Shown piece by piece: positions 38,207 to 54,564 of a stretch of 64,000 nucleotides of DNA (positions within the stretch are counted from its first letter, which is position 1; every line of letters starts with the position of its first letter). The notes beneath the pieces are model-generated. The model did not search any database. It worked only from the letters and a program-made list of their open reading frames with translations, and was not told where the DNA came from. This stretch comes from Streptomyces sp. P9-A2 (lineage in GTDB: Bacteria > Actinomycetota > Actinomycetes > Streptomycetales > Streptomycetaceae), in contig NZ_JAZIFX010000001.1 of the NCBI RefSeq assembly GCF_036634175.1, positions 5,084,001 to 5,148,000 on the forward strand, in the 5' to 3' direction. The position numbers were made by a program, and so were the translations under genes.

Positions 38207-38528
38207 CCGCCACCGCCGCGCGGCAGCGTTCCCCGTACGCGGAACGCACGGGGAACGCACGGGGAACGACGCACGCTTCCGATCCGGGGTACGAGCCCCG
38301 CGGCCGGGAGCGTGTGGCCGCCCGTCACTTTCCCGCGGAGAGCTGTTCGTCGGCCGTCGCGGGGTCCGGGCACGGGGCGCAGGGTTCGCGCGTTCCGGCG
38401 CGGCGGCCGGCGGCCGGTGGTCGACGGTCGGCGGCAGTGCCTGAGTGCGGTCGTCGGCCGTGTCGGACACGGGGCCGCGTGCGCGGGAGGCCCGAGCGGG
38501 CGGGCCAGCACGCGGGGCGCCCGACGGT
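38207..38528. other. intergenic region without recognised gene
   Basis: About 320 bp of GC-rich sequence between convergent genes. It starts with a short GGAACGCACGG direct repeat (38240-38270) and is otherwise unremarkable. Long frames here are composition artefacts. Confidence 0.6.
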
Positions 38529-38567
38529 GCGCTCCCGGCCGGGGTGGGACCTCGCGGCCGGGAGCGC
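38529..38567. terminator. hairpin terminator of the MoxR-VWA operon
   Basis: GCGCTCCCGGCC / GGCCGGGAGCGC arms (12 bp) with a 15-nt loop, 12 nt beyond the stop of the DUF5682-like gene on the minus strand. Confidence 0.7.
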
Positions 38568-38578
38568 GTTGTCGTCGG

Positions 38579-41500
38579 TCAGGTGCCGGCGAGGAGGGAC
38601 TCCAGCGCCGTCGCCGAGTCCGGATGACGGGCGGTCAGGACCGCGCCCGCCGGGGCCGCCGGGGCGGCGGTGGGTGCCCAGCCCTCCGTGCAGCCGAGCA
38701 GGTCCGCCACCGCGTCGCAGGTCGCCGGATGCGCGGTCAGCAGCGCTGTGCCCGCCACGCCCGCCGTGCCCGCCGGGGCGGTGGCCGGTGCCCACCCTTC
38801 CGCGCGGCCCAGCAGCTCCGCCAGCGCGTCGAACGCGGCGGGATGAGCCGGTGCCAGCGCGACGCCTCGGCGGACACCGGCCGCCTGCCCCGCCGCCCGT
38901 GCCGCGCGGCGTACAGGGACCGGAGCCGGTGCGCGCCACGGCGGCACCCACGCGTCCAGCGCCGCGAGCCGGGCCGGGAAGATCCGTCCGGCCTCGCGGA
39001 TCAGCAGCGGGGCCAGGTCCGCGGCGCCCGCCCGCAGCGTGCCGATCAGCGTCGGGAGCCATGGCAGCAGCACCGCGTCGGGCAGCCGCCCGAACGCGTT
39101 CGACACCGCCTCCACGACCACGTCCGCCAGACCCGGCACCGGCTCCAGCGCGTGCACGAAGCCGCTCAGGTAGCGCGGATACGCGGGCACCACCAGCGGG
39201 TTGGCCAGCAGTTCGTCGCACCGCGCCCGCAACCGCTCGCGGGAGAGGGTGCCGAGCTGCACCTGCGCCGCCCACAGCAGTGCCGTCTTCGACGGGTCCT
39301 CGGGGTGGGACTGCGCGACCGACAGCTCCAACTGCGTCCTGTCGCAGCCCAGCGAAAGCGCCAGGCTCTCCATGCTGAACAGGAAGCCCAGCATCGCGGC
39401 GACCTGACCCGTCGTCGCGTCCTCGTCCGTGAACGCGGTCGGCAGCAGGGTGCAGTAGTGCGCGTAACCGGCCTTGACGAAGGACTCGAGCCACGGCGGC
39501 AGCACCGGCTCGCTCGTCCGGTAGTACGCGAGCAGCCGGCGCACCCGGCGCAGCACCTCCGGCGCCCCGTCGACACTGCGCTCGGACGTCAGGACCGCCA
39601 GCGCGCGCGTGCCCAGCTCGTCGGTGAGACGCCGGCCGCCGCCCAGGTACAACGCCGCGTCCTCGACGGCTTCCAGGACCGCCGCCGCCGTCGCCTGCGG
39701 AGCGTAGGCGGCGCGGCGCAGGCGCTGCTCCAGGACCTGCTCGATGCTGACGCCGTCGTAGCCGAGCTCGATGAGGGCCCGCTGGTGGGTGCCGAGCGCC
39801 AGGTCCCACGACTCCTGGACCGACCGCTCGCCCAGCGCGCGCTCGCCCATGACGGTCCGGGCCGCGCCCTGCGGCAGCAGCCGGCGCAGCATCCACAGCA
39901 CGTCGGAGCAGTCCCGCAGCTCCGGCCGGGACGCCATGTCCAGCAGGGCCCGCCGCACGCCCCGCTGCTGGAGTTTCAGCCCCAGCGGCTCCAGCCGGTC
40001 GTGCACGTCGCGGGCCAGGGGAGGCAGCGAGTCGTAGCCGACCCGGCCGACCCGGTCGCCGCCCATCATGATCTCGACGAGCCGCCGGACGTCCCGCCGG
40101 CCCGGCACCGCGTCCTTCTCGATGCAGGTGACCGCCGCGTCCTGGAAGTCGTACGGCGTGGGCTTGGCCCGGTCCCGCATCCCGGCGAGCAGGATCGACG
40201 TCTCGAAGACGGCGATCGCGTCGGCGGTGGAGGCGAGATAGCCGCCTCGCCGGGCCGCGCTCACGATGTCCACGGACCAGCCGACGAGTTCGGCCTCGTC
40301 CAGCGCGTCCAGGACCGGCCGACGGCCCAGGAAGCCGGACAGCATGTCCGTCGCGGCGGGCCGCGCCGCCCCCGCCGCCGGTACGGCGGTCTGCTTCGCC
40401 CGGGACTTCTTCGTCCCGGCCTGGCCCGCCAGCCGGTACGGCCGGACCCGGGTGCGCTCGAGGCTCTTCGCCCACTCGGTCGCCGCGATGGACACCGAGC
40501 CGGCGGCGAGACCGAACTGCGCCTCGATCGCCGCGTGACTGGACGGGATGAGCCCGTGCTGCCAGGTGGTGGCGGAGCGCGGCGAGATCTCGTACGCGGC
40601 GGAGCCGGCCACGCCGAACTCCTCCACCCTGCTGGCCGCGTGGAACGCGCCGCAGACGTACAGGCAGTCCTCGGGGTCGGTGCCGGTCGCGGCCAGGTGC
40701 TCCCGCATCCGGGTCCACATGTACCGCTCGCGGTCCTCGTCGACCCGCACCCGTGACGGGTCGCCGGGGGCGAGCCGCCGGAACAGGCTGCCGATGAGGA
40801 ACATGACCTGGCGGTAGGTGTCGTGGTCGCCGTCGCCGAGCGGCAGCTCGACGTACTGGTGCCACCACTCCGACCAGTGCCGCACCTTGCCGTGCCGCAG
40901 CAGGTGCTCCTCCAGTTCGGCGAAACGCGGCCGCAGGTCGCCGATCTCCACGCCGACGGCCTCGCCGTGCAGCGCGGTCTCCGTCGCGTCCTCGTCCGCG
41001 GCGGTCCCGTCCGCGGCGGTCCTGTCCCCGTCCGGCCCGTCCCCGGCCGTCTCCGGGGTGTCGCGGCCCCGGCTGTCCCACTGGAAGACGTGGTCGGAGG
41101 ACCGGTCGACGAGGACCAGCTCGACGTCCGGCGTGTCCAGCGCGTACGCGATCGCCTGGTACTCGGCGGACGCCTCGGTGATCGGTGCGACCACCGACAG
41201 CGGCGCCCACTCGGGCGGGAAGCCGTCCACCTCGCTCGCGAACGCCTGGACGGCCACCGGGAGACGGCAGTTGCGCAGTTCGGTGAGGAGCGGCGCCATG
41301 TCCTCGCACAGCTCCAGGTACACCACCTTGGGCTGCTTCTCGCGCAGCCGGCGGGCCATCGCGAGGGCGGAGGCGGGCGAGTGGTGGCAGACGGGGAAGA
41401 TCTCCAGCGGCTCGCGCACCGCGCGGTCCACGTCGTCGACCATGCCGAGGAGGATGCCCTCCAGGGCGTCCGGCCCGCCGGCGAACGTGGCCGCGGCCTC

Positions 41501-41593
41501 GTGGAGCTGTCCGCGCAGCCCCGCGAACGTGTTCTCCCGCGCCGCGCGCGTGCTCTCCCGCACGACGGGCGCGCTCTCGGGTGCGGCGCTCAT
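38579..41593 (-). CDS. DUF5682-like (YehM-related) protein of a MoxR-VWA operon
   Basis: A 1004-residue, mostly helical cytoplasmic protein. The N-terminal third has conserved-looking motifs LEIFPVCHHSPASALAMARRL and KVVYLELCEDMAPLLTELRNC with an EVDGFPPEWAPL segment, reminiscent of TraB/erythromycin-esterase-like folds. The middle carries CLYVCGAFHAASRV and the C-terminus is Ala/Leu-rich helical repeats. The ATG overlaps the moxR stop (ATGA). It resembles the large partner found with YehL-type AAA+ and VWA proteins. The biochemical role is unknown. A short Asp/Ala/Thr/Glu low-complexity loop lies near residues 175-210. Last gene of the operon. Confidence 0.8.
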   Translation of the reverse strand: MSAAPESAPVVRESTRAARENTFAGLRGQLHEAAATFAGGPDALEGILLGMVDDVDRAVREPLEIFPVCHHSPASALAMARRLREKQPKVVYLELCEDMAPLLTELRNCRLPVAVQAFASEVDGFPPEWAPLSVVAPITEASAEYQAIAYALDTPDVELVLVDRSSDHVFQWDSRGRDTPETAGDGPDGDRTAADGTAADEDATETALHGEAVGVEIGDLRPRFAELEEHLLRHGKVRHWSEWWHQYVELPLGDGDHDTYRQVMFLIGSLFRRLAPGDPSRVRVDEDRERYMWTRMREHLAATGTDPEDCLYVCGAFHAASRVEEFGVAGSAAYEISPRSATTWQHGLIPSSHAAIEAQFGLAAGSVSIAATEWAKSLERTRVRPYRLAGQAGTKKSRAKQTAVPAAGAARPAATDMLSGFLGRRPVLDALDEAELVGWSVDIVSAARRGGYLASTADAIAVFETSILLAGMRDRAKPTPYDFQDAAVTCIEKDAVPGRRDVRRLVEIMMGGDRVGRVGYDSLPPLARDVHDRLEPLGLKLQQRGVRRALLDMASRPELRDCSDVLWMLRRLLPQGAARTVMGERALGERSVQESWDLALGTHQRALIELGYDGVSIEQVLEQRLRRAAYAPQATAAAVLEAVEDAALYLGGGRRLTDELGTRALAVLTSERSVDGAPEVLRRVRRLLAYYRTSEPVLPPWLESFVKAGYAHYCTLLPTAFTDEDATTGQVAAMLGFLFSMESLALSLGCDRTQLELSVAQSHPEDPSKTALLWAAQVQLGTLSRERLRARCDELLANPLVVPAYPRYLSGFVHALEPVPGLADVVVEAVSNAFGRLPDAVLLPWLPTLIGTLRAGAADLAPLLIREAGRIFPARLAALDAWVPPWRAPAPVPVRRAARAAGQAAGVRRGVALAPAHPAAFDALAELLGRAEGWAPATAPAGTAGVAGTALLTAHPATCDAVADLLGCTEGWAPTAAPAAPAGAVLTARHPDSATALESLLAGT

Positions 41594-42711
41594 GACAGCG
41601 TCGCGATCGCGTCCCGGCCGCCCTCCAGGAACTCGGGCCACGAGCCGCCCTGCTCCTTGCTGCGCGGCTCGACGACACCGTGCAGGTACTTGTTGAGGAT
41701 GGCCAGGTCCTCCGGCTCACGGCGGGCGAGGGAGCCGACGAGCGAGGAGGCGAGGGAACGGGCGGTCAGGGTGCGCTCACCGAAGAAGTTGCTGTGCAGG
41801 ACCGCGTCCTCCAGCACACCGATCTGCTCGGCCGTCGACAGCGCGGACTCCAGCTTCTCGTCGTCGCTGCCGGCCGCGGCGGCGGAGGCGCGCAGGTCGG
41901 CGAAGCTCTGGAGCAGCACGTCGAGCAGGGTCGGCGGCACCTCCAGCTCTATCGAGTGACGGCGCAGCAGCTCCTCGGTGCGGAAGCGGACGATCTCGGC
42001 CTCGCTCTTCTTGTTCGTCATGACCGGGATGCGGACGAAGTTGAAGCGGCGCTTCAGCGCGGACGAGAGGTCGTTGACCCCGCGGTCGCGGCTGTTGGCG
42101 GTGGCGATGACCGAGAAGCCGGGCTTGGCGAAGACGATGTTGTCGCTGCCGCCGCTCTCCAGCTCCGGCACCGAGATGTACTTCTCGGAGAGGATGGAGA
42201 TCAGCGCGTCCTGGACGTCGCTGGTGGAACGCGTCAGCTCCTCGAAACGGCCGATCGACCCGGTCTCCATCGCGGTCATGATCGGCGAGGGGATCATCGA
42301 CTCCCTGGACTGGCCCTTGGCGATGACCATGGACACGTTCCAGGAGTACTTGATGTGGTCCTCGGTGGTGCCGGCCGTGCCCTGCACCACGAGGGTGGAG
42401 TTGCGGCTGATCGCGGCGGACAGCAGCTCGGCCAGCCAGCTCTTGCCGGTGCCGGGGTCACCGATCAGGAGCAGGCCGCGGTCGGAGGCGAGGGTGACGA
42501 TGGAACGCTCGACGAAGCTCCGGTCGCCGAACCACTTCTGGGAGACCTCCCGGTCCAGGCTGTCGGAGCGCTCCGAGCCGAGGACGAACAGCCGGACCAT
42601 CTTCGGCGACAGCCGCCAGGAGAAAGGCTTGGGACCGTCGTCGACCGACTCCAGCCAGTCCAGCTCCTCGGCGTACTTGATCTCGGCGGGCGCGCGCAGC
42701 AGGTCGGACAT
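41590..42711 (-). CDS. MoxR-family AAA+ ATPase (YehL-like)
   Basis: 373 residues. Walker A LIGDPGTGKS (84-91 core), a Walker-B-like region IGRFEELTR, a long insert with SWNVSMVIAKGQSRESMIPSPIMTAME (the pattern of the YehL subfamily, here split), sensor 1 VIATANSRDRGVNDLSSALKRRFNFV with arginine finger region and a C-terminal lid. MoxR ATPases act as chaperones that remodel partners together with VWA proteins. It lies between the VWA gene (104 nt upstream) and the DUF5682-like gene (4-nt overlap). ATG 42711 with GGAAAGG upstream. Confidence 0.9.
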   Translation of the reverse strand: MSDLLRAPAEIKYAEELDWLESVDDGPKPFSWRLSPKMVRLFVLGSERSDSLDREVSQKWFGDRSFVERSIVTLASDRGLLLIGDPGTGKSWLAELLSAAISRNSTLVVQGTAGTTEDHIKYSWNVSMVIAKGQSRESMIPSPIMTAMETGSIGRFEELTRSTSDVQDALISILSEKYISVPELESGGSDNIVFAKPGFSVIATANSRDRGVNDLSSALKRRFNFVRIPVMTNKKSEAEIVRFRTEELLRRHSIELEVPPTLLDVLLQSFADLRASAAAAGSDDEKLESALSTAEQIGVLEDAVLHSNFFGERTLTARSLASSLVGSLARREPEDLAILNKYLHGVVEPRSKEQGGSWPEFLEGGRDAIATLS

Positions 42712-42739
42712 CAGGTGAGGGCCTTTCCGTTCAGGGCTC

Positions 42740-42808
42740 GAAGAAAGAAGTCGGGAGAAGCTGGGGAGAAGTCGCGAGAAGGGGAGGGAAGTCCGGGCGG
42801 GAGGGAAC
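42740..42808. other. purine-rich tract between VWA and moxR genes
   Basis: About 70 bp almost entirely G/A on the + strand, with repeated GAGAAG and AGAAG words (pyrimidine-rich CTTCTC in the operon mRNA). It is the only intergenic gap of size (104 bp) in the five-gene operon. Confidence 0.6.
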
Positions 42809-42815
42809 GGACGGA

Positions 42816-44300
42816 TCAGGTGAGAAACGTCTTGAGCTCGTGCACGAGCTTCTTGATGTGACCGGAGATCACCGGCGTGCCGAGGTCCTTGAAGCGCTCC
42901 CGGAACCACGGGTTGACGCTGCCGCGCCCGGCGCTGGTCACCGAACCGACCGGGATGAACTTCGCGCCCGAGCGATGGACGGCGGACATGCTCTCGAACA
43001 GCTCGTCGGTACGCCATTCGTAGAAGTCGGAGATCCACACCACGACGGTGTTGCGCGGCTCGGCGATCTTCGGCTGGGCCAGCGCCATGGCCACGGTGCC
43101 GTCCGTGCCGCCGCCGAGCTTGGTGCGCAGCAGGGTCTCGAACGGGTCGTGCGCCCAGGGCGTGAGGTCCAGCGCCTGGGTGTCGTAGGCGATCAGGTGG
43201 ACGTCCACCTTCGGCAGCCCGGCGAAGATGGAGGCCAGGATGGTGCAGTTGACCATCGAGTCGACCATGGAGCCCGACTGGTCCACGACGACGATCAGCC
43301 GCTGCGGTGTCGTCTTGCGGCTGGTGTGCCGGTAGTAGAGGCGGTCGACGTAGAGCCGCTCCTCCTCCGGGCTCCAGTTGGTGAGGTTCTTCCAGATGGT
43401 CCGGTCGATGTCGAGGTTGCGGAAGACCCGCTTCGGCGGGACGGACCGGTCGATGTCGCCGACCGTTGCCTTCTCCACCTGGGTGCGCAGGACAGCGGAG
43501 ACCTCGTCCACATAGCGGCGGATCAGCGACTTGGCGTTCGCCAGGGCCACGCCGGAGAGGTTGTCCTTGTCCCGCAGCAGCTGCTCGATCAGGGACATGC
43601 TCGGGGTCAGCCGCGCGGCCAGCCGCGGGTCGGCCAGCACCTCGCGCAGCCGCATCCGTTTGACCAGACCGGCCTCGAGGGAGCCGAGTTCCGGGCCGAT
43701 GGCGGGGATCAGCCGGCTGAGGTCGGGTGTGCGCCGGCCACCGCCGGTACCGGTGGGGCTGACACCCTGGCCGCCCGCGCCGGCACCCACCGCCCCGACG
43801 CCGCCCGCGCCGGCGCGTCCGCCCCGCAGGTCGCCGGGCCGGCAGCCGAGCGCCCGCTCCAGCCAGCCCGCGTCGGACTGCCAGCGGGACAGCTGCTCGG
43901 CGGTGACGGCGCCGCAGCCGGTGGAGAAGACGTTCAGCAGGACCTTGGAGACGAGGGCCGCGCGCCGCACCTCGGCGGCCCGGTCGCGGGTGTCGTCCTC
44001 CTCCGGCCCGGGGGCCATCAGCCCGTCGAACTCGGCGGCCAGCTCCGGGTGCCGCTGCACCACGGAGTCGACGGAGGCGCCCGGGTCGAGCAGCGCGGAC
44101 GGCAGCCCGATGTCCTCGACCACGGCCAGGCTCGCCGACTCCAGCGAGGCCTGCTCCTCGGGGTCGAACAGCCGGGCCAGCAGCCGCCAGTAGAGCACCT
44201 GGCGCCGGTTGTCGTTCGGGTCGGGCACGGCGGACTCCGCAGGTGCGGAGGGCCGGGACGGGCCGGGCACAGTGGTCGGTGCGGTGGTGGGGTCGGTCAT
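42816..44300 (-). CDS. VWA domain-containing protein of the MoxR operon
   Basis: 494 residues. A helical N-terminal part (NRRQVLYWRLLARLFD..., ~30-320) with a Gly/Ala low-complexity linker (~165-190) precedes a C-terminal von Willebrand A domain with intact MIDAS: VVVDQSGSM (DxSxS, ~339), the Thr position in GGGTDGT, and ISDFYEW (Asp). MIDAS VWA proteins bind metal and a protein partner and typically act as adaptors for MoxR ATPases. The ATG overlaps the stop of the preceding gene by 4 nt. Confidence 0.9.
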   Translation of the reverse strand: MTDPTTAPTTVPGPSRPSAPAESAVPDPNDNRRQVLYWRLLARLFDPEEQASLESASLAVVEDIGLPSALLDPGASVDSVVQRHPELAAEFDGLMAPGPEEDDTRDRAAEVRRAALVSKVLLNVFSTGCGAVTAEQLSRWQSDAGWLERALGCRPGDLRGGRAGAGGVGAVGAGAGGQGVSPTGTGGGRRTPDLSRLIPAIGPELGSLEAGLVKRMRLREVLADPRLAARLTPSMSLIEQLLRDKDNLSGVALANAKSLIRRYVDEVSAVLRTQVEKATVGDIDRSVPPKRVFRNLDIDRTIWKNLTNWSPEEERLYVDRLYYRHTSRKTTPQRLIVVVDQSGSMVDSMVNCTILASIFAGLPKVDVHLIAYDTQALDLTPWAHDPFETLLRTKLGGGTDGTVAMALAQPKIAEPRNTVVVWISDFYEWRTDELFESMSAVHRSGAKFIPVGSVTSAGRGSVNPWFRERFKDLGTPVISGHIKKLVHELKTFLT

Positions 44301-45691
44301 TTCCGGAGCAGCCTTCCGGCTCGTTCGCGGAGCGCGTCGACGGCGCCGGTGGCGGCCTTCTCCGCGCGGACGCCGGCCTTGTCGGTGGTGCCTCCGGCCC
44401 ACGCCCCGGCGTGCACCGCGACGGCCTTCTTCCGCACGGTCTTCTCCACGGCCAGCGGCTGGACGTGGAACTCCCCGGCGTCCCACCGGAGCAGCGCGAT
44501 GCACGCGCCGGACACGGCGACGGCCTCGGCGGTGAGCGGTCCGGCGGCCGGTATCCGGTCGGTGTCGACGGCCAGGCGGTGCCCGGCGATCCGGAACGCG
44601 ACCCCGTCGTCGTCCTGCTCCGCCTCGTACCCCTCCAGCAGGACGGGGACGGAGATCCGGGCCGGGTGCCGGTCCAGCGGCGCGGTCGCCGCCGCGGCGG
44701 CGGTGGGCAGGGCCACGCGCGCGGTGGCGAGGGAGTCGGCCGGCTCGCCCATGCGGGCGTGCGCGCCGTCCCAGACCAGGTCGCCCTCGGCGGTGACGGG
44801 CATCGCGCCGAGGTCCATCGCGCGGCCCTCGCTCACCGCGGTCAGCAGGGACAGGTGGGGGCGCAGCAGCTGCCACAGGCCCGCCCCGACGACGGTGTCG
44901 GGCTTCGGGACGGACGCGGCGGCCCGTACCAGCCGGGACGCGCCGCCGTCGGCGGGCTCGAACACCGCGTGGACCTGGGCCTGTACGGCGGTCGCGTGCT
45001 CCTGCACGTCGATCCCGAGCGGCAGCAGACGACCGGTGGCCGTGTCCGCCGCGGGGGCGCCGGTCGCACCCGGCAGCGTCAGGAGCAGAGCGCGCGACCA
45101 CAGGTCCGCCCACCGGCGTACCGGGATCCGCTCCAGGGTGGCCCCCGGGCAGGACGCGGCGAGTTCGGCGGCGAACCCGTCCAGCAGCGTGGCCTGCCGG
45201 CGCAGCGCCGGGTCGGGCAGCATCGCCGTGACGACGGGCGCGGCGCCGCCGACCAGCTCGTGGTCGATGCCCTGCCAGCCGGCGCGCGCGAGGTCGCTCA
45301 GCCAACTGCGGGCGGCGGCGAGGAGGTTCGCGGTGTGGTCCGCGCCACCGGCCCCGCCCGGGGCGGCCTCCTCGGCGACGGGCCGGCCGACGGCCTCCGT
45401 CACGCGGGCGGTCAGCGCGTCGTGCACCGAGCCGAGCAGGGCGGCTCGGGCGGCGGCGAGCGCGACGAAGTGGTCCTCGCCCGCGGCCCCGGCCACCGTC
45501 TTGTCGGCCGCCTCGGCGACGCGCGCGGCGAGCGGGGTTCCGGCGACGGCGTCGGCCAGTTCCACCACACCGGCGGCCTGGTCGGGCTGCGGCCGGAGCA
45601 GACCGGCGACGAGCGCCGCGTCGAAGGCGTCCACGGCCGCGAGGGCCTCGTCGAGACCGTCGACGGGGTCGAACAGCAGATCGGCACGCAT
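44297..45691 (-). CDS. protein of unknown function in the SWIM-VWA-MoxR operon
   Basis: 464 residues, Ala/Leu-rich, with no signal peptide or TM helix. The N-terminal half is helical (ALVAGLLRPQPDQAAGVVELADAV; AARSWLSDLARAGWQGIDHEL), the C-terminal half more beta-like (ISVPVLLEGYEAEQDDDGVAF, HRLAVDTDRIPAAG, ALLRWDAGEFHVQPLAVEKTVRKKAV). I do not recognise a family and see no catalytic motif. Four-nt overlaps on both sides (SWIM gene upstream, VWA gene downstream) mean it is made in step with them, suggesting a stoichiometric component. Confidence 0.82.
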   Translation of the reverse strand: MRADLLFDPVDGLDEALAAVDAFDAALVAGLLRPQPDQAAGVVELADAVAGTPLAARVAEAADKTVAGAAGEDHFVALAAARAALLGSVHDALTARVTEAVGRPVAEEAAPGGAGGADHTANLLAAARSWLSDLARAGWQGIDHELVGGAAPVVTAMLPDPALRRQATLLDGFAAELAASCPGATLERIPVRRWADLWSRALLLTLPGATGAPAADTATGRLLPLGIDVQEHATAVQAQVHAVFEPADGGASRLVRAAASVPKPDTVVGAGLWQLLRPHLSLLTAVSEGRAMDLGAMPVTAEGDLVWDGAHARMGEPADSLATARVALPTAAAAATAPLDRHPARISVPVLLEGYEAEQDDDGVAFRIAGHRLAVDTDRIPAAGPLTAEAVAVSGACIALLRWDAGEFHVQPLAVEKTVRKKAVAVHAGAWAGGTTDKAGVRAEKAATGAVDALRERAGRLLRK

Positions 45692-46194
45692 CAGGCCACC
45701 GCCCTCGTCGTCGGGAACCACTGCATCTCGGGCAGCGGCGCGGTGCTCGGCGCGAGCTCCAGGTACGCCAGGTGCCGCAGGAACCGGCTGAACACGGGCG
45801 CCGCGGCCGAGGTGTCGCCCTGCGCGGGCCGCGTGCGCGTCATGGCGGTGGTGACGGAGTCCGCGTCGAGCCCGCCGTCCGCCACCTCGACCTTCAGGTA
45901 CCGGGCCACGCGCTCGGCGCCGTACTGCAGCACGGCCTCGTCGACCAGCGCCCGGATGTGGTTGCAGAACCACCCGCGCGCGCCGCCGCAGGGGCGGTTG
46001 TTGTTGGTGCTGCACGCGAACGCGTAGGTCCCGGCGGCGACGGACGACACGTACACGCGCCCGATGTCCGACCCGCTGGAGACCACCCCCTGCAGCCGGC
46101 CGTCCGCCAGCTCGACGAACGGCACCTTGGACAGCTTCCGCGGCCTCGCGGGCGGCACCACCCGCGCCGTGCTCGACTTCTCCCAGACGGACAA
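45691..46194 (-). CDS. SWIM zinc-finger protein, first gene of the MoxR-VWA operon
   Basis: The SWIM pattern is seen as AFACST then a spacer with CGG and WFCNHIRALV (C-x(n)-C-x-H), preceded by an aromatic/beta region (VWEKSSTARVVPPARPRKLSKV; GRVYVSSVAAGTYAF). SWIM domains bind nucleic acid or protein. The TTG at 46194 has AGGGGAG 8 nt upstream and gives 167 residues; an in-frame GTG at 46236 gives 181 but lacks a comparable ribosome binding site. It overlaps the next gene by ATGA. The spacing between the first and second Cys is shorter than in many SWIM proteins. Confidence 0.8.
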   Translation of the reverse strand: MSVWEKSSTARVVPPARPRKLSKVPFVELADGRLQGVVSSGSDIGRVYVSSVAAGTYAFACSTNNNRPCGGARGWFCNHIRALVDEAVLQYGAERVARYLKVEVADGGLDADSVTTAMTRTRPAQGDTSAAAPVFSRFLRHLAYLELAPSTAPLPEMQWFPTTRAVA

Positions 46195-46564
46195 CGCACC
46201 ATCTCCCCTGCATGCGAAAGCAGATGTCCACGCCACCTCGGCGCAACACGATCGAAGCTATCCCCGACCACTGACATCGAGAGTGGTGCGCAGGTCCCGG
46301 GAGGCGGGGCTCGGGGTTCGGGCCCCGGCAGCCGGACGCGGATCCCACGCGCCCGTCCGCGCGCCCCCAATTCGTCGATCCCGTAACGGAAGCCCGGCGG
46401 TGGTGTCACAGATTCCCGTCGACTTGGGGTTCTCCCCAGCAGCCCCTTGAGGCGCTTGAACACGGCTCGGCATACTGCATCATCCGGGGGGTGCGCACAT
46501 GCGTACGAGACCACCCCCGGCCGGGTGATGGGGAATCAGCCCGGTACATCAGCTAGGGGGAACC
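46195..46564. other. divergent promoter region: SWIM operon / secreted protease
   Basis: 370 bp without a gene. Carries the promoter of the five-gene operon on the left (AT-richer GATAGCTTCGATCG on the minus strand near 46250) and that of the protease on the right. Confidence 0.6.
46447..46476 (+). promoter_or_regulatory. possible promoter of the subtilase gene
   Basis: TTGAGG (46447-46452) and CATACT (46471-46476) with 18-nt spacing, about 90 nt before the start codon. Fits a vegetative -35/-10 pair. Confidence 0.35.
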
Positions 46565-53334: not shown

Positions 53335-54564
53335 ATGAGCTACGGCACGGCTGACTCCTTGCGCACCGTCACCCTCGACGATGTGCGCGGTGCCCGGAAG
53401 ATGCTCCAGGGTGTCGCGCGGGTGACCGCGATGGAGAGCAGCAGACACCTGTCCCGCACGGTGGGCACCCCGGTGCACCTGAAGTGCGAGAACCTCCAGC
53501 GCACGGGTTCGTTCAAGCTGCGCGGCGCGTATGTCCGGATCGCCGGGCTGCTGCCGGAGCAGCGCGCCGCCGGTGTCGTCGCCGCGAGCGCCGGAAACCA
53601 CGCGCAGGGCGTCGCGCTCGCGTCCTCGCTGCTCGGGGTGGGCTCGACGGTGTTCATGCCGAAGGGCGCCCCGCTGCCGAAGATCAGCGCCACCCGGGAG
53701 TACGGGGCCGAGGTGCGCCTGCACGGCCAGGTGGTCGACGAGGCACTGGTCGCGGCGGAGGCGTACGCGGCCGAGACGGGCGCCGTGCTCATCCATCCCT
53801 TCGACCATCCCGACATCATCGCGGGCCAGGGCACCGTGGGACTGGAGATCCTGGAGCAGTGCCCGGAGGTGCGCACGATCGTCGTCGGTACCGGCGGCGG
53901 TGGGCTGATCGCCGGGATCGCGGTCGCGGTGAAGGCACTGCGGCCGGACGTACGGATCATCGGGGTGCAGGCGGAGGGCGCGGCCGCGTATCCGCTCTCG
54001 CTGGCGGCCGGGTACCCGGTGTCGGTGCGCAACCCGGCGACGATGGCCGACGGGATCAAGGTGGGGCGGCCCGGCGACGTGCCGTTCGGGATCGTCGGCG
54101 AACTGGTGGACGAGGTCCGCACCGTCACCGAGGGCGAGCTGTCGGCCGCGCTGCTGCTGTGCCTGGAGCGGGCCAAGCTGGTCGTGGAGCCGGCCGGCGC
54201 GAGTCCGGTCGCGGCGCTGCTGAGCCGTCCCGACTCCTTCGAGGGGCCGGTCGTGGCGGTGCTGTCCGGCGGCAACGTCGACCCGGTACTGATGGAGCGG
54301 GTGCTGCGGCACGGGATGGCGGCGCAGGGCCGCTACCTGGCCGTACGGTTGCGGCTGGCGGACCGGCCGGGCGCCCTCGCGACGCTTCTCGGGGCATTGT
54401 CAGTGGCCGACGCTAACGTCCTCGACGTGAGCCATGTACGGACCGACCCCCGGCTCGGGCTCACGGAGGTGGAGGTCGAAGTGCACCTCGAGACGAAGGG
54501 CCCGGCGCACCGCGCCGAGGTCGACCGGATCCTGCGCGACGCGGGCTACACGATCATCGACTGA
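53335..54564 (+). CDS. ilvA: threonine ammonia-lyase (threonine dehydratase)
   Basis: 409 residues. PLP lysine in RTGSFKLRGAY, SAGNHAQGVA, the glycine-rich phosphate loop GTGGGGLIAG, and a C-terminal ACT-type regulatory domain (YLAVRLRLADRPGALATLLGAL). It converts threonine to 2-oxobutanoate and ammonia. The single short ACT domain resembles the catabolic/AMP- or valine-responsive short form rather than the long E. coli IlvA. ATG 53335 with CTGGAG directly upstream. Its product 2-oxobutanoate feeds isoleucine and propionyl-CoA pools. Confidence 0.93.
   Translation: MSYGTADSLRTVTLDDVRGARKMLQGVARVTAMESSRHLSRTVGTPVHLKCENLQRTGSFKLRGAYVRIAGLLPEQRAAGVVAASAGNHAQGVALASSLLGVGSTVFMPKGAPLPKISATREYGAEVRLHGQVVDEALVAAEAYAAETGAVLIHPFDHPDIIAGQGTVGLEILEQCPEVRTIVVGTGGGGLIAGIAVAVKALRPDVRIIGVQAEGAAAYPLSLAAGYPVSVRNPATMADGIKVGRPGDVPFGIVGELVDEVRTVTEGELSAALLLCLERAKLVVEPAGASPVAALLSRPDSFEGPVVAVLSGGNVDPVLMERVLRHGMAAQGRYLAVRLRLADRPGALATLLGALSVADANVLDVSHVRTDPRLGLTEVEVEVHLETKGPAHRAEVDRILRDAGYTIID

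Follow-up and report, generated by a model that had tools for sequence, protein, structure and literature searches.

A 64,000-nucleotide stretch of Streptomyces sp. P9-A2 (here called the window; positions 5,084,001-5,148,000 on the larger contig of an 8.39 Mb genome; G+C content along the window 67-77%) carries five minus-strand genes that form one operon. Direct reading of the DNA placed the five open reading frames (ORFs) exactly where an earlier sequence-only reading, made without database searches, had put them. In the order of transcription, they encode a 167-aa finger protein (45691-46194), which has a TTG start and whose relatives begin M-S-x-W-E; a 464-aa protein (44297-45691), proposed below to be the body of a YehQ-like protein; a VWA_CoxE protein (42816-44300), counterpart of YehP, with a metal-ion-dependent adhesion site (MIDAS) motif D-x-S-x-S; a MoxR-type AAA+ ATPase (41590-42711), counterpart of YehL, with the Walker A motif GDPGTGKS; and a 1004-aa DUF5682/YehM-like protein (38579-41593). 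New here is that this operon opens with the consensus of the actinobacterial LexA/RecA-independent DNA-damage promoter.

The genes are tightly packed. The finger and 464-aa genes overlap by 1 nt in TGATG, ATGA joins the 464-aa gene to the VWA gene and the MoxR gene to the 1004-aa gene, and a 104-nt gap separates VWA from MoxR; the sequence-only reading was thus right about the gap and about two of its three ATGA overlaps, the third being the TGATG junction. Its closing terminator holds as to the hairpin: directly after the last stop codon, on the minus strand, lies a terminator-like G+C-rich hairpin (38529-38567; folding of 38510-38585 gave a dG of -46.9 kcal/mol, z -4.71), which has no T-tract.

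Co-occurrence of the five genes had been set beforehand as the test of the operon, and the operon was kept throughout. A search of 84,980 species, one genome per species, that used aligned sequences of the large protein as its query found 536 stretches with relatives, of which we kept the best 80; with nine further loci these make up 88 distinct loci (L021 and L069 are the same locus, and counts below over 84, 89 or 90 sequences or loci include it twice). All five genes were found in the same order and on the same strand in 81/81 of the distinct loci that are intact at contig ends; the remaining seven are interrupted by contig ends. The window-type system is patchily distributed. Among 150 genomes sampled from the genus, a MoxR of the window type (E < 1e-200) occurs in 35, some MoxR match in 146, and at least one YehL-type match other than the window type in 143 (versions pooled); in a sample of the phylum (n=296) the large protein was matched in six genomes, strongly in five. 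In four loci (L012, L027, L026 and L028) the cassette lies on plasmid-labelled records, two from Streptomyces with 0.93 and 0.97 Mb and two from Embleya with 3.1 and 5.7 Mb, which are perhaps chromosomes. One scan of viral contigs returned no viral relatives of the system.

By sequence kinship the cassette is a divergent yehLMPQ-type system, a parallel already drawn by the sequence-only reading that we can follow to the level of sequence for three of the proteins (MoxR/YehL, VWA/YehP and 1004-aa/YehM), the other two corresponding by gene content. In a set of 16 proteins, the MoxR profile matched YehL at an E of 2e-82, bearing out the assignment as a YehL-like MoxR AAA+ protein, and the VWA profile matched YehP at 2.2e-48. 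The VWA protein also matches PF05762 (VWA_CoxE) at 5.8e-28, and D-x-S-x-S is present in 89/89 VWA sequences, so that the MIDAS-bearing VWA domain was likewise correctly called. Walker A is intact in 89/90 MoxR sequences, and both the ATPase and the MIDAS motifs are intact in the window's own proteins. Also present in this genome is a canonical cluster (L006), whose MoxR and VWA paralogues share 45% and 29% identity with those of the window.

The 1004-aa protein alone has no Pfam match at E<=1, though a profile built from 87 large-protein sequences bears out the earlier view of it as a DUF5682-like partner of about 1000 residues: within the 16-protein set this profile hit an Iodobacter DUF5682 protein (6.7e-19), the canonical DUF5682 protein of the same genome (6.5e-9) and YehM (1.5e-7). 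PF18934 (DUF5682) in turn matches eight of the nine members of a mixed alignment. At the profile level, then, the protein is related to DUF5682/YehM. Across nine DUF5682 proteins, H-H-x-P, a Glu and G-x-x-H are invariant, and both His motifs occur in 86/87 of the large proteins of the window type. Its C-terminus (window 38579-38845) contains three copies of a repeat HP-x(3-4)-x-A-x3-LL; three distant relatives have one each, in the same pattern.

Two claims had to be revised. The first gene had been read as a SWIM Zn finger. Its cysteines and histidine follow an atypical pattern, C-x7-C-x7-C-x-H (CSTNNNRPCGGARGWFCNH, residues 61-79; 45958-46014, minus strand), found in 83/84 finger sequences, while the canonical SWIM spacing C-x-C-x(4-25)-C-x-H is found in 0/84. 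Neither the finger protein nor two distant relatives match Pfam SWIM (PF04434). Because of the missing match and the different spacing, we class the finger, on its residue pattern, as SWIM-like and not as SWIM proper. The 464-aa protein had been taken for an additional part that could not be placed. It is probably no addition, because it is fused in one open frame to the finger protein in 11/88 distinct loci; it probably represents the body of a YehQ-like protein, separated from its zinc finger. The alignment of its profile to YehQ is colinear but weak (P 0.017), and the C-terminal half of a relative, in a predicted structure, resembles OB-like beta barrels. Given the fusion, both genes together (167 + 464 aa, versus 614 aa for E. 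coli YehQ) would therefore equal one YehQ-like protein. Our first idea, that the 464-aa protein is DUF5691, was rejected for want of support by sequence profile.

In E. coli K-12, yehLMPQ (with the DUF4132 gene yehI) likewise gathers MoxR, DUF5682, VWA and finger proteins into one cluster. The Streptomyces operon differs in its gene order, in the division of the finger protein over two genes, in the altered finger pattern, in the size of its large protein (about 1000 aa versus 759) and in having no DUF4132 gene adjoining. In the literature searched, which did not extend to subscription papers, we found no mention of DUF5682 and no function for yehL, yehM, yehP or yehQ; these names rarely co-occur, and where they do each is printed once.

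The promoter motif lies at 46255-46276 on the minus strand, 60 nt before the first start codon, and reads TGTCAGTG-GTCGGGGA-TAGCTT, matching the RecA-NDp/P1 (PafBC-type) consensus. That consensus, tTGTCRgtg-N8-TAnnnT, describes the LexA/RecA-independent damage promoter of mycobacteria (PMC5656591), and the window motif differs from it solely at the first, lower-case base. Counting of 9-mers upstream of the first gene gave TTGTCAGTG at about -83 in 73/84 loci, and TGTC[AG]GTG-N8-TAnnnT is present there in 78/83 distinct loci; in the other five it is masked by N (L032), nearly matched (L065, L027, L028) or degenerate (L023). Among spacers of 4-12 nt, only 8 is used (0/84 for 4-7 and 9-12). Seven other copies of the full pattern were found in the 1.9 Mb scanned on both strands, and the number expected from shuffles of the window was 0.00. 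Mean conservation was 0.50 in the 45 nt before the motif and 0.62 in the 50 nt after it, the motif's own conservation following from the pattern used to pick loci; the second T of the -10 block (TAnnTT), which lies outside the search pattern, is found in 79/79 motif-bearing loci. No sigma-70 consensus promoter was found in the region. Start sites separating the genes, a possibility that the sequence-only reading had raised, were looked for by way of this motif, which stands ahead of the first gene and is absent from the 104-nt VWA-MoxR gap. A second full copy within the window (54398-54419) falls in an ilvA-like coding region and is probably fortuitous.

LexA was considered as a common regulator and rejected, because its box, GAAC-N4-GTTC, is exact within the 300 nt upstream in only 1/84 loci (with one mismatch, 8/84). 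Crude LexA-box patterns run over the E. coli stretch gave three loose matches, which were not used. In mycobacteria, the LexA/RecA-independent damage promoter is used by PafBC (PMC6789036, PMC8223512), and motifs of the PafBC type reach into other Actinobacteria (PMC8223512). Among the proteins lowered in an M. smegmatis pafBC mutant are MoxR1, MoxR2 and a von Willebrand factor protein (PMC5656591), which does not imply that these are of the yeh type; the accessible PafBC literature, subscription papers apart, was not found to name yeh-type genes.

We looked for the same motif in two 400-kb stretches of this genome (contig 1: 5880000-6280000 and 1360000-1760000; 800 kb in total), which are no random sample, having been picked to cover recA and the paf locus as expected from the S. 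coelicolor gene order. Of seven core matches, six lie at or just before gene starts: recA, uvrC, a DinG-like helicase gene, a DSHCT helicase gene near the paf locus, a moaA-like gene and an unknown 145-aa gene. The seventh is inside a coding region. Pfam verified recA, uvrC and both helicases; the names DinG and moaA come from reading of the sequence. A relaxed pattern gave five further matches per stretch, which we do not count as evidence. Near pafA the genome encodes an HTH_PafC+WYL protein and a second WYL protein. The operon thus resembles the PafBC (RecA-NDp) regulon of mycobacteria in its promoter consensus and in the presence of PafB/PafC-like genes; it differs in that PafBC function has been described, in the accessible sources, for mycobacteria, and the operon's putative membership here is read from the motif. 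These motif copies suggest a candidate LexA/RecA-independent regulon in Streptomyces. For the genus in general, these data disagree with a study of S. venezuelae whose initial search for the PafBC motif did not show it to be conserved and which left a LexA/RecA-independent response unshown for Streptomyces (PMC9380542).

The motif is not confined to the window's version of the system. In the canonical cluster (L006), genes for a DUF5691 protein and a SWIM protein diverge from those for MoxR, DUF5682 and VWA. It shares with the window three homologous core proteins and the promoter motif; unlike the window operon it is arranged as two divergent units, its SWIM finger matches PF04434, and it has the DUF5691 protein in addition. 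The canonical SWIM operon carries the motif in 21/21 loci (19 newly fetched plus L006 and L112), among them L176, in which the gene caller did not call the SWIM gene itself and the motif is placed and oriented as in the others. Elsewhere in the genus there are genomes with an E. coli-like version (DUF4132-MoxR-DUF5682-VWA-YehQ), and this DUF4132-first version carries the motif in 2/2 loci (L110 and L181). A fourth version, known from five loci, pairs a MoxR gene with a neighbouring, very large VWA ORF. In both of the large proteins scanned by Pfam (L111, 10854-14642; L114, 10353-14237) the ORF proved to be a single DUF5682-VWA_CoxE fusion, making this a two-gene version. In three of the five loci, L113 (3542), L117 (3789) and L118 (3427), the motif precedes a gene of 284-289 aa about 5 kb away, which is DUF4132 by Pfam in both cases scanned (L113 and L118); near the version in L111 and L114 the motif is absent.

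Two further observations concern the E. coli-like type. An Iodobacter plasmid (L010, 10019-16702) has this version with its YehQ-like part on two genes, near type I restriction genes and transposases. Three E. coli-type proteins (P0253, P0315 and P0317) carry both VWA domains and long matches to YehQ within a single chain, which is either a further natural fusion in the family or the product of frame changes.

We propose that the operon encodes a MoxR/VWA machine, inducible by DNA damage, for the remodelling of nucleoprotein or repair complexes, and we give this proposal an even chance of being right. It is the simplest reading because damage-type promoters are found on three paralogous versions of the system and beside a fourth; with such a promoter of its own, the machine therefore probably works in DNA-damage survival. 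In our model, damage would produce single-stranded DNA, which would activate PafBC as it does in mycobacteria (PMC11804915), and PafBC would steer RNA polymerase to the TGTCAGTG-N8-TAnnnT promoter before the operon. The MoxR ATPase ring would then pull or twist the VWA adaptor as in NorQD, where MoxR is the ring ATPase and VWA the adaptor (PMC13036017), with the DUF5682 protein as a partner for this adaptor. Substrates, most likely nucleic acid or a nucleoprotein, would be recognised by the finger and the OB-like subunit, a split YehQ-like protein, and the complex would dismantle or reset protein complexes on damaged DNA, or mature a repair factor. The natural fusions (finger with 464-aa protein in 11/88 loci; DUF5682 with VWA in both large proteins scanned) suggest that these are physical partners. 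NorQD and RavA-ViaA chaperones share with this machine the MoxR ring and the VWA adaptor; unlike it, they have respiratory enzymes as clients, and the accessible sources describe no finger/OB or DUF5682 partner for them.

The sequence-only reading left open maturation, quality control and defence, and did not name the DNA-damage response to which the promoter points. Three observations weigh against our proposal: the system of the window is patchy in the genus (35/150 genomes), its MoxR weakly matches the mads defence model in PADLOC, and a methylase in the flanks of five loci matches further mads models. They would fit an anti-phage or anti-mobile-element defence in which the damage promoter serves as an infection alarm, MoxR-VWA as the switch, the finger/OB part as sensor of foreign nucleic acid and the DUF5682 protein as effector. 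We consider this unlikely. The match of MoxR to mad8 of mads has an E of 1e-6, other PADLOC models matching it more weakly, and that to the NCBIfam MadB ATPase model (3.3e-8) is far under the model's cut-off, but these matches are restricted to the common AAA+ region; among the other four proteins the best PADLOC match is that of VWA to TerY at 0.0058, the remaining three having none. The two Streptomyces plasmid-labelled records and those of Embleya, and the Iodobacter plasmid copy near restriction genes, speak for defence; patchiness, on the other hand, does not extend to the family in its entirety, because 143/150 genomes of the genus hold another YehL-type MoxR match. MoxR-vWA pairs do build ternary conflict systems (Kaur et al. 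2020, PMC7159879), which resemble the operon in their MoxR + vWA core and in their patchy distribution. They differ in that VMAP, iSTAND, FtsH and beta-propeller domains are unmatched in our five proteins by Pfam (which possibly lacks some of these models); the Pfam bpMoxR model reached 13.6 bits, below its cut-off of 27, and the Pfam scan of the five proteins showed no known effector domain.

The flanks bear on the same question. They differ between loci, which would suit a mobile defence system, and among 968 flanking ORFs (called by a crude rule on G+C at third codon positions, with 10 representatives put through Pfam and PADLOC) we found an N6 DNA methylase family in five loci (representative L033, 3641-5299) and a borderline EVE-domain family in seven (representative L044, 3123-3623). 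The L033 methylase was recognised by type I methylase models (9.4e-77) and also by two of the mads models, mad2 (3.3e-23) and mad1 (6.5e-5). The commonest families, however, are an esterase and an NAGPA protein (19 and 16 of 90 loci, that is, 89 plus the window), and no defence neighbour is constant across the flank families of these 90 loci as judged from the 10 representatives. A defence island was rejected, no defence gene being common to the flanks.

It is quite improbable, in our judgement, that the operon encodes a chaperone for metal-cofactor or enzyme maturation of the CoxDE/NorQD kind, with a client that is encoded elsewhere and needed after damage. In favour of such a role, the VWA protein belongs to the VWA_CoxE family, NorQD acts by remodelling a linker so that metal can be inserted (PMC13036017), the moaA-like gene has the same promoter motif, and DUF4132 and MolR have been mentioned with molybdate metabolism (PMC8533742). 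No metalloenzyme family, however, is common to the most frequent neighbours scanned, and the flanks vary. Nor is a finger or OB-like part known from maturases of the CoxDE/NorQD type. Finally, that DUF5682 is a TraB/TIKI/ChaN-like hydrolase, and the machine a damage-triggered protease or cell-death device, is very improbable: the invariant H-H-x-P, Glu and G-x-x-H speak for a hydrolase, but the likeness to this superfamily is presumed, and searches of Pfam (E<=10) and of PDB sequence profiles returned no TraB/TIKI-like match.

The proposal of a damage-inducible remodeller may be extended, tentatively, to the whole yeh-type MoxR-VWA-DUF5682-finger family, which would be a dedicated DNA-damage machine across bacteria, acting on nucleoprotein complexes on damaged DNA and placed under different damage regulators. 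Those regulators could possibly be the P1/PafBC motif in Streptomyces, DdrO for a DUF4132 gene in Deinococcus and LexA for E. coli MolR. In Deinococcus, depletion of DdrO raises the level of the DUF4132 protein DRA0166, which we count as an independent hint, and LexA control has been reported for MolR, a WGR protein. MolR is presumably part of the E. coli yeh locus.

Yeh-type systems are widespread and, in the literature searched, without a described function; a conserved damage promoter, carried by three paralogous versions and found near a fourth, offers a concrete phenotype to look for. The presence of the motif at recA, at uvrC and at a gene of DinG type also reopens the question of a LexA/RecA-independent damage response in Streptomyces (cf. 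PMC9380542). If the wider reading, for the whole family, is true, these genes would make up a bacterial AAA+/VWA repair remodeller for which we found no described counterpart, and of which Streptomyces would keep a common copy and several accessory ones.

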